A DNA stretch of 38,524 nucleotides. Origin: Chitinophagaceae bacterium (lineage in GTDB: Bacteria; Bacteroidota; Bacteroidia; Chitinophagales; Chitinophagaceae). This document shows positions 34,171-38,524 of this stretch, one piece after another (the stretch's first letter is position 1; the number at the start of each line of letters is the position of its first letter). Both the position numbers and the translations under genes were made by a program. Where the stretch lies: the NCBI GenBank assembly GCA_947466405.1, contig CANICR010000008.1:1-38524 (forward strand), given 5' to 3'. The notes below the pieces were generated by a model, which saw only the letters and a program-made list of their open reading frames with translations, had not been told where the DNA came from and made no database searches.

Positions 34171-34674
34171 ATGGCTGTTATCATTAGAAAATGGAACGAA
34201 GACGATATTCCCTCATTGGTTAAGCATGCCAATAATATCAATATATGGAATAACCTCAGAAATTATTTTCCTCAACCCTATACCACTGAACATGCTGAAT
34301 TATGGATTAAGAATTCTTTAGCTGAAACACCATTGATAAATTTCGCAATTGATTTAGATGGAGAAGCTATCGGAGGAATTGGACTTATTTTTAATACAGA
34401 TGTTTATGTATTGTCTGCCGAAATTGGTTATTGGATTGGAGAAGATTTTTGGGGTAAAGGAATAACTACAGAAGCCATTAGGCAAATGGTTGAATACACT
34501 TTCTATTATTTCGACATCATTAGAATTTATGCTGAAGTATTTGAAAATAATAAAGCTTCAATGCGTACTTTGGAGAAAAATGGGTTCTATTTAGAAGGCG
34601 TTAGAAGAAAATCAGTATTTAAAAATAACATATTAATGGATGATTATATTTGGGTCAAACTGAGGCCTTATTAA
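34171..34674 (+). CDS. GNAT-family N-acetyltransferase (RimJ/RimL-like)
   Basis: A 167-residue GNAT of the Acetyltransf_3 (RimJ/RimL/ribosomal-protein-like) type. The acetyl-CoA site lies in 'IGYWIGEDFWGKGITTEAIRQMVEY' (motif A, with the Gly-rich GKG-I-T turn), followed by 'IIRIYAEVFENNKASMRTLEKNGFYLEGVRRK' (motif B; NxAS-R-x-LEKxGF). The substrate is an amine that cannot be deduced. It ends 84 bases before the PqqD-like gene on the same strand and might belong to that cluster, for instance acetylating the cluster's product, but the gap and generic nature of the family leave this open. Confidence 0.92.
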   Translation: MAVIIRKWNEDDIPSLVKHANNINIWNNLRNYFPQPYTTEHAELWIKNSLAETPLINFAIDLDGEAIGGIGLIFNTDVYVLSAEIGYWIGEDFWGKGITTEAIRQMVEYTFYYFDIIRIYAEVFENNKASMRTLEKNGFYLEGVRRKSVFKNNILMDDYIWVKLRPY

Positions 34675-34758: not shown

Positions 34759-35001
34759 ATGCAACTAAAAAAAAACATTGCTACCAGTGACTCTGGATTC
34801 ATTTTCAATCCTTCTACAGGAGATTCATTTTCAGCTAATCCAATCGCCGCAGAAATCATTGTTCAATTAAAAAAAGGCGAATCTTCTTCTTCCATTAAGA
34901 AAATAATTATTGAAAAGTATGACGTTGAGCCAAATCAATTAGAAGCTGATTGGGATGACTTCATTGTTCAATTAAAAGATGGAAATCTTTTAGAAAATTA
35001 A
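34759..35001 (+). CDS. PqqD-like small protein (possible peptide-carrier/RRE fold)
   Basis: An 80-residue protein resembling PqqD: an N-terminal beta hairpin 'NIATSDSGFIFNPSTGDSFSANPIAAEII', followed by helices 'IVQLKKGESSSSIKKIIIEKYDVEPNQLEADWDDFIVQLKDGNLLE'. The order (x-SGFIF-p-TGdsf-N-A-IV--L--G-s---I---i---Y-v----l--D---F---L---gll) is that of PqqD and of the RiPP recognition element, which bind precursor peptides and present them to modifying enzymes. No precursor peptide is visible in this window. It lies 10 bases before the ATP-grasp gene, so the two are almost certainly co-expressed. Confidence 0.78.
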   Translation: MQLKKNIATSDSGFIFNPSTGDSFSANPIAAEIIVQLKKGESSSSIKKIIIEKYDVEPNQLEADWDDFIVQLKDGNLLEN

Positions 35002-35011
35002 TAATCAAACA

Positions 35012-36061
35012 ATGTCAGATAATAAAACACTAGTAATTGCAGTCACTGGATTAAATGCCATAGACAGCCCTGGCCCTGGTGTAGCTGTAATAAGGGCTTT
35101 AAGAGATGGATTGCAAAAAAATATCAGAATCATTGGCTTATCTTATGAAACATTGGAACCTGGTATCTATTTACATGACATTGTTGATAAAACATACCAA
35201 ATACCATATCCCGCTGCAGGATTAGATACTTTATACAATCGATTACACTTCATACATCAACAAGAAAATATTTCGCTCATCATTCCAAATTTTGATGCAG
35301 AGTTGTACAATTTTATAAAATTAGGACCTGCTCTTAAGTCCATTGGCATTGAAACATTTTTACCAACAATTGAACAGTTTGAATCAAGAGATAAAATCAA
35401 TTTATTCAATTTTGGGAAGAAGTTTAATTTATTAGTACCAAAAGACAAAGTGCTTTACAACATAAACGAATTGCATTCATGTGCTGAAGATTTTGGTTAC
35501 CCCTTGGTAGTTAAAGGGAAGTTTTATGATGCAATCATTGCTCATACAATGGAACAAGCACAAAAAGCATTTTACAAATTATCTGCAAAGTGGGGAATGC
35601 CCATCATTGTTCAGCAATTTATTACTGGTACTGAAATAAACATTGCCGTATTGGGTGACGGAAAAGGGAATACCATCAGTGCTATCCCAATGAGAAAATT
35701 ATATATAACAGACAAGGGTAAAGCATGGGCGGGAATTACTTTAGAAGACGAAACATTGATAGCATTAGCAGAAAAATTTATACGCGCAACTAACTGGAAA
35801 GGTGGATGTGAATTAGAAATCATGAGAACAACTGATGGCAAGCCTTATATCATGGAAGTAAATCCAAGATTTCCTGCCTGGATTTATTTAACAGCAGGTG
35901 CTGGACAAAATCAACCGGCATTATTAACGAAAATGGCATTGGGCGAAGAGGTATTACCCATAAAAGAATATGAGGTTGGTAAAATATTTATTCGATATGC
36001 CTGGGATCATATTACTGACGTGAGTGAATTTCAAAAAATAAGTGCTTTTGGTGAACTTTAA
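35012..36061 (+). CDS. ATP-grasp ligase
   Basis: A 349-residue ATP-grasp enzyme of the carbamoyl-phosphate-synthase/PurK-like type. The N-terminal Rossmann-like preATP-grasp domain begins 'LVIAVTGLNAIDSPGPGVAVIRALR'. The ATP-grasp fold contains Lys168 in 'YPLVVKGKF', Glu208 in 'FITGTEINIAVLGDG', Glu269 in 'CELEIM', and the Mg ligands Glu282 and Asn284 in 'IMEVNPRFPAW'. Such enzymes join a carboxylate to an amine (or another nucleophile) through an acyl-phosphate. The acceptor and donor are unknown. Placement between a PqqD-like gene and a PLP decarboxylase gene suggests use of an amino acid or peptide carboxylate. The gene is 24 bases from the decarboxylase gene. Confidence 0.9.
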   Translation: MSDNKTLVIAVTGLNAIDSPGPGVAVIRALRDGLQKNIRIIGLSYETLEPGIYLHDIVDKTYQIPYPAAGLDTLYNRLHFIHQQENISLIIPNFDAELYNFIKLGPALKSIGIETFLPTIEQFESRDKINLFNFGKKFNLLVPKDKVLYNINELHSCAEDFGYPLVVKGKFYDAIIAHTMEQAQKAFYKLSAKWGMPIIVQQFITGTEINIAVLGDGKGNTISAIPMRKLYITDKGKAWAGITLEDETLIALAEKFIRATNWKGGCELEIMRTTDGKPYIMEVNPRFPAWIYLTAGAGQNQPALLTKMALGEEVLPIKEYEVGKIFIRYAWDHITDVSEFQKISAFGEL

Positions 36062-36085
36062 TTACATTATTCAAAAATATTTTTT

Positions 36086-37444
36086 ATGCAGAAGTTGAAA
36101 TATGAAAGACCTATTATACAAAAAATGAATGCTGGTTTGATGAACAAGTTTGGTACAAGAACTGAATATGAACCCGTTAAACAAATAGATGGAGTTACTG
36201 TAAAATCAATGATAGAAAAATACGGCTCTCCCCTTTTCGTTATTAGCGAAAGAACCATTAGAAGAACATATCAAAATACGGTTAGAGCTTTCAAAACAAG
36301 ATATCCAAAAGTACAATTCGCCTGGAGTTATAAAACAAATTATATCAATGCCGTTTGCAATATTTTTCATCAAGAAGGTAGTTGGGCTGAAGTAGTAAGT
36401 GGTTTTGAATATAAAAAAGCAATTGATAATGGAGTTCCTGGAAATAAAATTATTTTTAATGGCCCTGAAAAAACAAATGAAGAATTATTATTTGCTATAG
36501 AAAATGATTCATTAATCCATATTGATCATTTTGACGAACTCTATCAAATCATTGAATTATGTGAAAACATCACCCAAAAACCTCGTGTTGCCATTCGTGT
36601 TAATATGGACACCGGAATTTATCCAATATGGGATAGATTTGGATTTAATTACGAAAATGGAGCTGCTTGGAATGCGATCACCAAGATTGTCGCATCTGGA
36701 AAAATGAATTTCATTGGATTGCATTGCCATATAGGCACCTATATGTTATCCTCAGAAGCATATGCAATCGCTGTTAAAAAATTAAGTGACTTAGCTTGGA
36801 AATGCAAATCACAATTAAACACCTCTATTCAATATTTAGATATGGGCGGCGGCTTCCCTTCTGCAAACACATTAAAAGGCGCCTACCTTCCAGCCACTGA
36901 TACCAATCCTACTATTGAAGAATTTGCAGAAGCCATTACAAATGCAATTTTAAATGCTGGATTTAAAACAGATGAATTACCATTGCTAATTTTAGAAACT
37001 GGAAGAGCCTTGATCGATGATGCTGGATACCTGCTTGGATCTGTATTAGCGAATAAAAGACTAAGTGACGGAAGAAGAGCCACTATTATGGATTTTGGTG
37101 TAAATATCCTATTTACTTCTTTTTGGTACGAACATAAAATAAGTCCGGCTCAGGAATTTACTCATCATACAGAAGATATGGTATTGTATGGTCCATTATG
37201 TATGAATATTGATGTAGTCAGGGATTCAATAAACTTACCCCTACTAAATCGGGGTGATCATGTTGTTGTACATCGGGTAGGTGCTTATAACATGACACAA
37301 TGGATGCAATTCATTCAAATGCGCCCAAATGTAATTTTAATCGATGAACAAGGTAATACACATTTGATTCGTGAAGCAGAAAACAAACAATATATAGAAC
37401 AATTAGAAAAAATGCCAACACATTTAGCTTCTGTAAAATTATAA
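36086..37444 (+). CDS. Fold-III PLP-dependent decarboxylase (diaminopimelate/ornithine decarboxylase-like)
   Basis: A 452-residue alanine-racemase-fold decarboxylase. The PLP lysine is Lys83 in 'FAWSYKTNY'; 'GLHCHIGTY' (211-219) stacks on the cofactor; the phosphate-binding loop is 'MGGGFPS' (253-259); and 'ETGRALIDDAG' (304-314) is the usual EPGR with Thr replacing Pro. The second-subunit catalytic cysteine is Cys372 in 'YGPLCMNIDV', and Tyr401 in 'GAYNMTQW' completes the site. This resembles LysA, but the N-terminal 35 residues and the cofactor motifs differ enough that another substrate is likely. It follows the ATP-grasp gene and leads within 3 bases into the transporter frame. Confidence 0.88.
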   Translation: MQKLKYERPIIQKMNAGLMNKFGTRTEYEPVKQIDGVTVKSMIEKYGSPLFVISERTIRRTYQNTVRAFKTRYPKVQFAWSYKTNYINAVCNIFHQEGSWAEVVSGFEYKKAIDNGVPGNKIIFNGPEKTNEELLFAIENDSLIHIDHFDELYQIIELCENITQKPRVAIRVNMDTGIYPIWDRFGFNYENGAAWNAITKIVASGKMNFIGLHCHIGTYMLSSEAYAIAVKKLSDLAWKCKSQLNTSIQYLDMGGGFPSANTLKGAYLPATDTNPTIEEFAEAITNAILNAGFKTDELPLLILETGRALIDDAGYLLGSVLANKRLSDGRRATIMDFGVNILFTSFWYEHKISPAQEFTHHTEDMVLYGPLCMNIDVVRDSINLPLLNRGDHVVVHRVGAYNMTQWMQFIQMRPNVILIDEQGNTHLIREAENKQYIEQLEKMPTHLASVKL

Positions 37445-37447
37445 CCC

Positions 37448-38524
37448 CTGCAAAAAAGAAAATACATACAGGCCTTTCAATCATTCACCTCAGCTATACT
37501 AAATAGTTATGGAATGTTGTTTTTCTCAAAGAATACTTTTTTTTCGGCATTAATATTTATAGTTTCCTTTTTTATACCTGTTGTAGGATTTATGGGATTA
37601 ATAGCCACTATTATTGCCATTTCGTCTGCAGAATTACTTGGATTTGATAAACTTCAGATAAACTCAGGCATATATAGTTATAGTGCTTTATTGTTTGGAT
37701 TAGGATTCTCTACCAATTATGAATTCGGCAACGCATTCATGGTGCTTTTAATTATTGGAGCAATATTAACCATGCTATTATCTATAGCTATTTCATCAAA
37801 ATTGGCTTCAAAAAACATTCCCGGATTATCACTTGCTTTTATTTTCACAACCTGGATTGTGATATTAGCTGCTAAAAACTTTGCCGGATTAGGATTAACA
37901 CAACGTCACATTTACTGGGTTAATGAAACCTACGCTATAGGCGGACAACAATTAGTTCACCTCATTCAATCAATAGAAAATTGGCAAGTCGCTCCTTATA
38001 TTTCTGGATATTTCAGATCATTAAGCGCCATTATTTTTCAAGGCAATATTGCAGCAGGAATATTATTATCAATAGGTTTACTTATTAATTCAAGAATATC
38101 ATTTGTATTAACTATTATAGGTTATTCAATTGCTATAGTATTTAATCAATCAATGGGCGGATTTAATAACGGCGACCTTTCCTATTATAATATTGGTACC
38201 AATTTTATGTTAGTTGCCATTGCTTTAGGTGGCTTTTATTTAATTCCATCTATGCAATCCTTCTTTTGGAATATCGTAACTATTCCTATTGCTTATATGA
38301 TGGTTGTAGGGTTAGGTACAATCACGTATAGTTTTGGATTACCCGTATTCTCTCTACCTTTTTGCATAGTAGTGATATTATTTTTATACTGTTTGCAACT
38401 CAGAAAGAATCCAAAAAAACTTGTTGCAACTCCCATTCAATATTATAGTCCTGAAATTAATTTATACAACTTCTTAAATGGCAAAGAACGATTATTAAAC
38501 AAATTTTACCTCCCCTTTTCTTTA
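37448..38524 (+). CDS. Urea-transporter (UT) family membrane protein, truncated by window end
   Basis: An open frame of 359 codons runs from right after the decarboxylase stop to the window end. It encodes about ten hydrophobic segments and resembles the urea transporter (UT) family: 'ILNSYGMLFFSKNTFFSALIF...VVGFMGLIATIIAI', 'GIYSYSALLFGLGF', and the second-half 'GNIAAGILLSIGLLINSRISF'. UTs are channel-like passive transporters of urea or related amides. The start is uncertain: the first in-frame ATG (37514) would remove the 'AILNSYG' helix the family needs, so translation may begin at CTG 37448 or be coupled. After the last membrane segment a soluble stretch begins ('NPKKLVATPIQYYSPEINLY'); I expect a further domain, possibly an M23-type peptidase as recalled for Bacteroidota relatives, beyond the window. 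Confidence 0.8.
   Translation, partial: MQKRKYIQAFQSFTSAILNSYGMLFFSKNTFFSALIFIVSFFIPVVGFMGLIATIIAISSAELLGFDKLQINSGIYSYSALLFGLGFSTNYEFGNAFMVLLIIGAILTMLLSIAISSKLASKNIPGLSLAFIFTTWIVILAAKNFAGLGLTQRHIYWVNETYAIGGQQLVHLIQSIENWQVAPYISGYFRSLSAIIFQGNIAAGILLSIGLLINSRISFVLTIIGYSIAIVFNQSMGGFNNGDLSYYNIGTNFMLVAIALGGFYLIPSMQSFFWNIVTIPIAYMMVVGLGTITYSFGLPVFSLPFCIVVILFLYCLQLRKNPKKLVATPIQYYSPEINLYNFLNGKERLLNKFYLPFSL

Follow-up and report, generated by a model that had tools for sequence, protein, structure and literature searches.

The closest published logic that we found for the gene cassette described here appears to be that of butirosin biosynthesis. According to the sections of PMC7857480 and PMC4431377 used here, that pathway comprises an 87-amino-acid (aa) carrier protein, BtrI, an ATP-grasp enzyme of the carbamoyl-phosphate-synthase group, BtrJ, and a decarboxylase, BtrK, which acts on carrier-bound glutamate. 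Our cassette begins near one end of a 38524-base contig of a Chitinophagaceae bacterium (GenBank assembly GCA_947466405.1, contig CANICR010000008.1), which was analyzed in its entirety and is referred to as the window. Its first four genes are predicted to encode a PqqD-like protein, an ATP-grasp ligase, a pyridoxal 5'-phosphate (PLP)-dependent decarboxylase and a urea transporter (UT)-family channel, so that, like BtrI/BtrJ/BtrK, it combines a small protein, an ATP-grasp enzyme and an alanine-racemase-fold decarboxylase that may act on a conjugated amino acid (same sections of PMC7857480 and PMC4431377). In contrast, BtrI is a carrier protein whereas the small protein of the cassette is PqqD-like and gave no carrier-domain match, and BtrK scored only 84 bits (pairwise) against the cassette decarboxylase. 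We know of no fusion of a UT channel with an M23 peptidase (UT::M23, described below) and no outer-membrane genes in the butirosin pathway. If the analogy holds, a RiPP recognition element (RRE; RiPP, ribosomally synthesized and post-translationally modified peptide) would replace the small protein, and a peptidase-channel fusion would carry out release and export. The pearlin pathways (Tmo/Tgl) resemble such a scheme in that an amino acid is modified on a carrier and freed by a membrane-bound protease (PMC9303977, section used here), whereas neither a PEARL enzyme nor a scaffold-peptide gene was recognized in the cassette. The cassette would thus work like the butirosin and pearlin pathways and would seem to be a member of neither.

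Conservation of the cassette was studied in two sets of loci, which overlap at least at one locus (L145 of genome G207, whose contig equals that of L044 in length). For the first, contigs were scanned with the decarboxylase as query; of 574 confirmed relatives the best 80, all of them labelled as Bacteroidota, were retained. Beside the decarboxylase, tblastn placed the ATP-grasp gene in 78, the UT gene in 76 and the PqqD-like gene in 75 of these 80 loci; misses at L034, L050 and L087 corresponded to contig ends, L075 had no PqqD-like gene and an ATP-grasp gene whose front was missing, and in L108 other frames preceded a UT fragment. The second set came from 392 genomes sampled evenly from the phylum of the window, on which the search was centred (E <= 1e-40 for the decarboxylase and E <= 1e-25 for the ATP-grasp). 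The decarboxylase was present in 35 of these genomes, including that of the window. The ATP-grasp was found in 36, namely the 35 decarboxylase carriers (at least 40% identity) and one more with a 29% match (G411), and the UT in 47, namely the 35 carriers and 12 genomes with UT only. The probability of 35 genomes falling by chance inside those 36 is around 10^-48 if genomes are taken as independent, which they are not. Genes for PqqD, ATP-grasp, decarboxylase and UT::M23 followed one another in the loci of all 34 other carriers; in five of these (L146, L154, L164, L167, and L168), additional frames were called in between. Being common to all 35 carriers among the 392 genomes, the four-gene arrangement is not a product of chance, and the dedicated system proposed in an earlier, sequence-only reading of this DNA was in this respect supported.

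Distances between the cassette proteins were correlated (r 0.76-0.86 for 44-47 loci), partly through shared ancestry. The distribution was patchy, the cassette being found in 8 of 35 congeners and in 3 of 23 genomes belonging to other parts of the order. Four genes plus an M23 domain, usually together with a barrel-like and a tetratricopeptide repeat (TPR) protein, constitute one conserved unit in a minority of the genomes of the phylum. Judged by gene neighbourhood, a conserved, unnamed and usually six-gene cassette with a patchy distribution in Bacteroidota opens with the four genes seen in the window; the four-gene system proposed from the sequence stands as a unit and was too small in extent. 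Plasmid carriage was considered and rejected: plasmid records at E 1e-10 numbered only four, all with no more than 28% identity to the ATP-grasp, and no paper on the cassette was found in the open-licence part of PubMed Central (PMC).

The most unusual component is the channel gene. Clustering of open reading frames (ORFs) placed a UT frame with a median length of 723 aa in 77 of the 80 loci, and in the single relative scanned against Pfam (L033) an M23 peptidase domain (PF01551, 62 bits) followed the channel. By homology, the UT gene of the window is the front of what in relatives is a UT::M23 fusion of about 720 aa, the M23 part lying beyond the window end. The UT frame was 280-332 aa long in the UT-only genomes, save for one fragment, and 689-769 aa in the 35 carriers, the exceptions being the window (contig end), G063 (two frames), and G312 (around 535 aa); a frame of fused length was found only alongside the decarboxylase. 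In alignments of 62 rows (A2 and A5) the metal-binding or catalytic residues His378, Asp387, His462, His495, and His497 of the M23 domain (H, D, H, and HxH) were kept in all rows, and the M23 region was more conserved than the UT region (mean top-residue frequency of 0.64 vs. 0.46). A predicted model of M23 plus tail, searched as one piece (predicted local distance difference test score, pLDDT, 91.7), matched LytM/M23 structures, and the 50 Foldseek matches listed for it were all M23 proteins or larger entries containing one.

As in UT/SLC14 channels, the whole UT domain aligned with dvUT (167 bits, family profile), whereas the filter residues were mostly changed in the fusions, and the fusions carry an M23 domain. 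The urea transporter model TIGR03441 (cut-off 274.6) gave 109.8 bits for the window and 105.9 for L033. Residues Thr130 and Thr294 of dvUT are conserved in UT-A2 and UT-B (PMC4357013, section used here). In the fusions, the equivalent of Thr130 was Thr in only 3 of 62 rows (mostly Ser, as in the window itself) and that of Thr294 in 9 of 62 (otherwise Ser, Val or Ala); the position that we take to be the filter Glu, presumably Glu187 in dvUT numbering, was Glu or Gln in none. Stand-alone UTs of the phylum presented Thr at both sites in 10 of 10 cases and Glu (7) or Gln (3) at the third. These came from 11 of the 12 UT-only genomes (G275, a fragment, was not fetched), ten of which gave a frame (L182 did not), with a weak alignment for L189. 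Since the urea-filter residues are mostly lost in the fusions, the urea-like cargo assumed earlier becomes doubtful. Ordinary urea uptake was also considered and rejected, given the restriction of the fused-length UT to decarboxylase carriers and the changed filter. Mean numbers of Lys/Arg vs. Asp/Glu were 1.9 vs. 0.8 in the N-terminal flank, 2.8 vs. 0.6 after the last span, and 1.8 vs. 3.5 in the middle loop; this charge pattern, together with ten UT spans assigned by homology, points to a cytoplasmic M23 domain, which would be unusual for M23.

The decarboxylase displayed the features expected of alanine-racemase-fold PLP decarboxylases, with the PLP Lys, an ExGR motif, the catalytic Cys and both Pfam domains. 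In an alignment of the window and 52 relatives (A3, 53 rows), Lys83, Cys372, Asp376, and the pocket residue Trp347 were invariant, and the variable position of the EPGR motif was Thr in 34, Ser in 15, Asn in 3, and Pro in 1; the variant ETGR pointed out earlier for the window was confirmed. The LysA model of NCBIfam (TIGR01048) gave 216.3 bits (cut-off 297.9) and the FslC model (NF041039) 215.5 bits (cut-off 500). The nearest solved chain was an N-citrylornithine decarboxylase (191 bits), followed by LysA (155 bits). A family profile run on 35 loci, four of which repeat a gene, separated 13 cassette-type enzymes (822-935 bits) from the other 22 (no more than 150 bits). Cassette rows presented the motifs FTSFWY or FTAFWY (Tyr replaced by Phe in two) and CMNID; 15 distinct LysA-like rows, a count that leaves out L015 and L016 (other decarboxylases) and L023 (a fragment), had RPMxY or RPALY, and CE. 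Where LysA has the Arg of its RPxxY motif, the cassette enzymes have Thr (52 of 53 rows), and where it has Glu next to the catalytic Cys, they have Met (53 of 53).

The pocket was compared with that of FigC, whose residues are named in PMC7857480 (section used here), by pairwise alignment with the solved chain. FigC/FslC, of rhizoferrin synthesis, includes the nearest solved structure by sequence and shares the pocket Thr, Tyr, and Met with the cassette enzyme: the equivalent of Thr327 was Thr in 52 of 53 rows, that of Tyr331 was Tyr in 50 and Phe in 3, and Met355 was kept in all. In contrast, Thr330 was replaced by Trp, and the citrate-binding His357 and Arg387 by Ile and Gln, respectively, in every row; on these residues and on its low NF041039 score, an N-citryl amino acid decarboxylase (FigC/FslC) was not accepted as the identity of the enzyme. 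Also unlike rhizoferrin synthesis, the cassette families include no NIS synthetase. The pocket has neither the acid of the ornithine/arginine enzymes nor the LysA Arg nor the basic FigC residues, and we infer that the enzyme acts on a conjugated amino acid whose side chain is uncharged. The sections of PMC7857480 used here state that, with the exception of DAPDC and D-ODC, members of the clade probably act in the making of specialized metabolites; the relation of the cassette enzyme to that clade (FigC, SbnH, AcsE, MccE, and BtrK) was gauged from pairwise scores only.

Coexistence with LysA was determined in 59 genomes, that of the window and 58 relatives. A TIGR01048 match above cut-off occurred in 36 of them and was never the cassette gene. 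The cassette decarboxylase was present in 12, six of which also carried LysA above cut-off; among the 47 non-carriers LysA was present in 30 and absent in 17 (Fisher P = 0.51 vs. carriers). A housekeeping LysA was therefore rejected, in agreement with the sequence-only reading, on the score below cut-off, the missing Arg and Glu of diaminopimelate (DAP) binding, and the coexistence in half of the carriers. That reading had also noted no lysine or polyamine gene, which is right for the window and wrong for the genome (2.08 Mb), where dapA and, on another contig, a second TIGR01048 match (52.7 bits), which we take as a candidate arginine-decarboxylase-like gene, were found. No LysA above cut-off was detected in this genome, which suggests lysine dependence or an unrecognized LysA; several congeners, with or without the cassette, also lacked LysA above cut-off.

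The genome gave a single PqqD match at E 0.001, the PqqD-like protein of the cassette. The nearest solved chain to its family profile was TbiB1 (50.4 bits), which we take to be a lasso-peptide protein, and other solved PqqD/RRE proteins were also among the best. In the alignment of the window and 53 relatives (A4, 54 rows) the C-terminus was variable, so the protein resembles an RRE that binds a peptide or partner more than it does a covalent carrier; a predicted RRE domain of the winged-helix, peptide-binding type fits these matches. The PqqD domain announced by the earlier reading is retained, a carrier function in the covalent sense being less likely. In the ATP-grasp ligase (A1, window and 60 relatives, 61 rows) K128, K168, E208, K229, E267, E269, E282, N284, and R286 were present in every row, in keeping with the complete catalytic residues reported before. 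It shared 14% identity with PylC, and the other cassette genes, unlike PylC, are not those of the Pyl pathway. Reduction of full-length rows by identity left 74 of 98 sequences for PqqD, 64 of 105 for ATP-grasp, 52 of 109 for the decarboxylase, and 70 of 95 for UT::M23.

Downstream of UT::M23, a secreted protein of around 395 aa occurred in 67 of the 80 loci, with a TPR-like start whose TPR matches were weak and fell below the Pfam cut-off, and 64 of 80 loci then had a TPR protein (around 206 aa); gene ends overlapped here, with median gaps of -17 and -13 for the secreted and the TPR protein, respectively. We read the secreted protein as a putative outer-membrane, beta-barrel-like component. 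Within the stretch shown, the TPR protein was recognized in 30 of the 34 phylum-wide loci.

The window is the whole contig, whose end at 38524 truncates the UT gene (Table 1). All four cassette frames were recovered on one strand, with Pfam matches above cut-off, at the places given by the sequence-only reading. Of the gaps of 10, 24, and 3 bases that it listed, the first two (PqqD-like/ATP-grasp and ATP-grasp/decarboxylase) were reproduced; the third requires the UT gene to begin with the CTG at 37448. This is probably its start, given that the first ATG lies at 37514 and homology extends upstream of it; nine of ten relatives inspected likewise lacked an in-frame ATG over the 84 bases preceding that position, L036 having one. 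The non-ATG start (window 37442-37516; relatives L033-L052), which leaves only a short space behind the decarboxylase stop, may reflect translational coupling. Neither RNA elements nor tRNAs were found in the window, and a sigma-70 scan before the cassette gave no more promoters than shuffled sequences (31 found, 31.3 expected).

Table 1. Predicted features at the end of the window.
Feature	Position	Strand	Supporting match
GNAT acetyltransferase (Acetyltransf_3)	34171..34674	+	Pfam PF13302, 97.7 bits
PqqD-like protein, 80 aa	34759..35001	+	Pfam PF05402, 40.1 bits (cut-off 23.4)
ATP-grasp ligase, CarB/PylC-like, 349 aa	35012..36061	+	Pfam ATPgrasp_Ter, 46 bits (above cut-off)
PLP-dependent alanine-racemase-fold decarboxylase, 452 aa	36086..37444	+	Orn_Arg_deC_N, 105.1 bits (above cut-off)
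UT-family channel gene, 5' part, 3'-open	37448..38524	+	PF03253, 156 bits (cut-off 25)

Other neighbours were less constant. The GNAT family, which the gene maps place upstream of PqqD, was found in 28 of the 80 loci and is a probable lineage-specific accessory. A LytTR-like regulator (27 of 80 loci) and a LytS-type histidine kinase (26 of 80; PF06580 in L089, the one scanned) lay near the cassette, mostly just before it (L059-L112), and a regulatory link is likely. In 11 of the 34 phylum-wide loci (L155, L160, L161, and L169-L176) a secreted protein, mostly of around 280 aa, was encoded 8-166 bases ahead of the PqqD-like gene. This family carries a type IX secretion system (T9SS) sorting tail (Por_Secre_tail in both members scanned, L160 and L172) and was still linked by blastp after removal of the last 85 residues.

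From these components we infer, as the earlier reading did, a pathway that decarboxylates, ligates, and transports, and we favour, though with somewhat less than even confidence, a dedicated biosynthesis-and-export cassette operating in five steps. The PqqD-like RRE protein would hold a partner (peptide or protein) or dock the enzymes; the ATP-grasp would then activate a carboxylate with ATP and form an amide to an amino acid side chain, probably on the partner held by PqqD. PylC, and BtrJ on its carrier protein, are thought to perform this kind of amide ligation. In the third step the decarboxylase would strip the alpha-carboxyl from the conjugated amino acid to leave an amine, comparable to FigC/FslC and BtrK; the M23 domain, predicted to be cytoplasmic from the channel topology, may next cleave the product free, and the product would finally exit via the altered UT pore and pass the TPR protein and the outer-membrane barrel. 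A bolder form of this scheme, which we consider unlikely, is a new carrier-assisted class in which an RRE-held amino acid is ligated and decarboxylated and a cytosolic M23 domain on a repurposed urea channel releases the product and passes it out; no description of such a channel-coupled release step was found in open-licence PMC.

Several observations weigh against the five-step cassette. Among the best 80 loci, L057 (6661-8016) and L058 (6717-8072) encode the decarboxylase without partners; in both it is a close relative (75%), with pocket motifs identical to the cassette type and no partners in the DNA available. These two were the exceptions when scattered homologues or a grouping with LysA, which the sequence-only reading had named as grounds for abandoning a dedicated system, were looked for, and the system otherwise withstood that search. 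The PqqD-like protein has no conserved C-terminus, and PqqD was its only Pfam match, with none to a phosphopantetheine carrier domain. The decarboxylase receives nearly equal scores from the LysA and FslC models, so that its link with the conjugate decarboxylases depends on its pocket and a single PDB ranking, and for the ATP-grasp, biotin carboxylases and GAR synthetase were among the equally good structural matches. M23 peptidases normally act outside the cytoplasm, and two Cys co-occurring in 53 of 62 fusion rows are a candidate periplasmic disulfide. Export, as opposed to uptake, is only the presumed direction of transport. Lastly, no linked precursor or carrier peptide appeared: in a search of ORFs of 20-129 aa, with less than 20% overlap with cassette genes or with ORFs of at least 130 aa and with families counted down to four loci, no small-ORF family other than PqqD occurred in more than 6 of the 80 loci, so the check for short precursor ORFs in the flanks advised earlier came back empty.

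This absence bears on two rival explanations in opposite ways. It agrees with a free small-molecule pathway, in which the enzymes would make a siderophore-, signal- or osmolyte-like N-acyl amine from free substrates, PqqD would only dock them, and the product would be exported. A channel with an outer-membrane barrel fits a small product, and the relatives FigC, SbnH, and AcsE use free conjugates (PMC7857480, section used here); yet the RRE-like protein, present in 75 of 80 and 34 of 34 loci, and the catalytically complete M23 would have no obvious role, and we regard this pathway as unlikely. For a RiPP system proper, with an RRE that guides the enzymes to a precursor encoded elsewhere, M23 cutting the leader, and export of the modified peptide, the missing small-ORF family is a difficulty; a RiPP with a linked precursor was in fact rejected on this ground in the 80 loci, an unlinked or highly variable precursor being possible. 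The PqqD/RRE gene, with TbiB1 as its nearest solved chain, does adjoin an ATP-grasp gene, and a peptidase is fused to the exporter, whereas the NCBIfam matches of the ATP-grasp include no graspetide family and a peptide would be a tight fit for a UT pore, which makes a RiPP distinctly unlikely.

The peptidase could also be placed on the other side of the membrane, where peptidoglycan or a surface protein would receive the amine and a periplasmic M23 would remodel the wall. The best M23 matches are indeed peptidoglycan peptidases, and outer-membrane-like and TPR partners, as well as the T9SS-tailed family just upstream in 11 of the 34 loci, point the same way. The ten UT spans and the net-positive N- and C-terminal flanks instead predict a cytoplasmic M23, and no cell-wall ligase or transferase is among the conserved cassette families, so that envelope modification seems quite improbable. 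That the decarboxylase might simply be the LysA of the organism beside unrelated genes is suggested by the dapA of a genome with no other LysA above cut-off and by the 216 bits from TIGR01048. This explanation is highly improbable, considering the cut-off, the absent RPxxY Arg and Glu after Cys, the six of 12 carriers with a LysA of their own, an absence of LysA that is not significantly rarer in non-carriers, and the strict linkage of the decarboxylase to the cassette.

Routine annotation would probably label these proteins as 'LysA,' 'carbamoyl phosphate synthase-like,' and 'urea transporter,' thus hiding a metabolite and a transport step in the Bacteroidota that carry them. If the five-step cassette is true, it would show a urea channel turned into a peptidase-coupled exporter and would open a way to amines of a new class.

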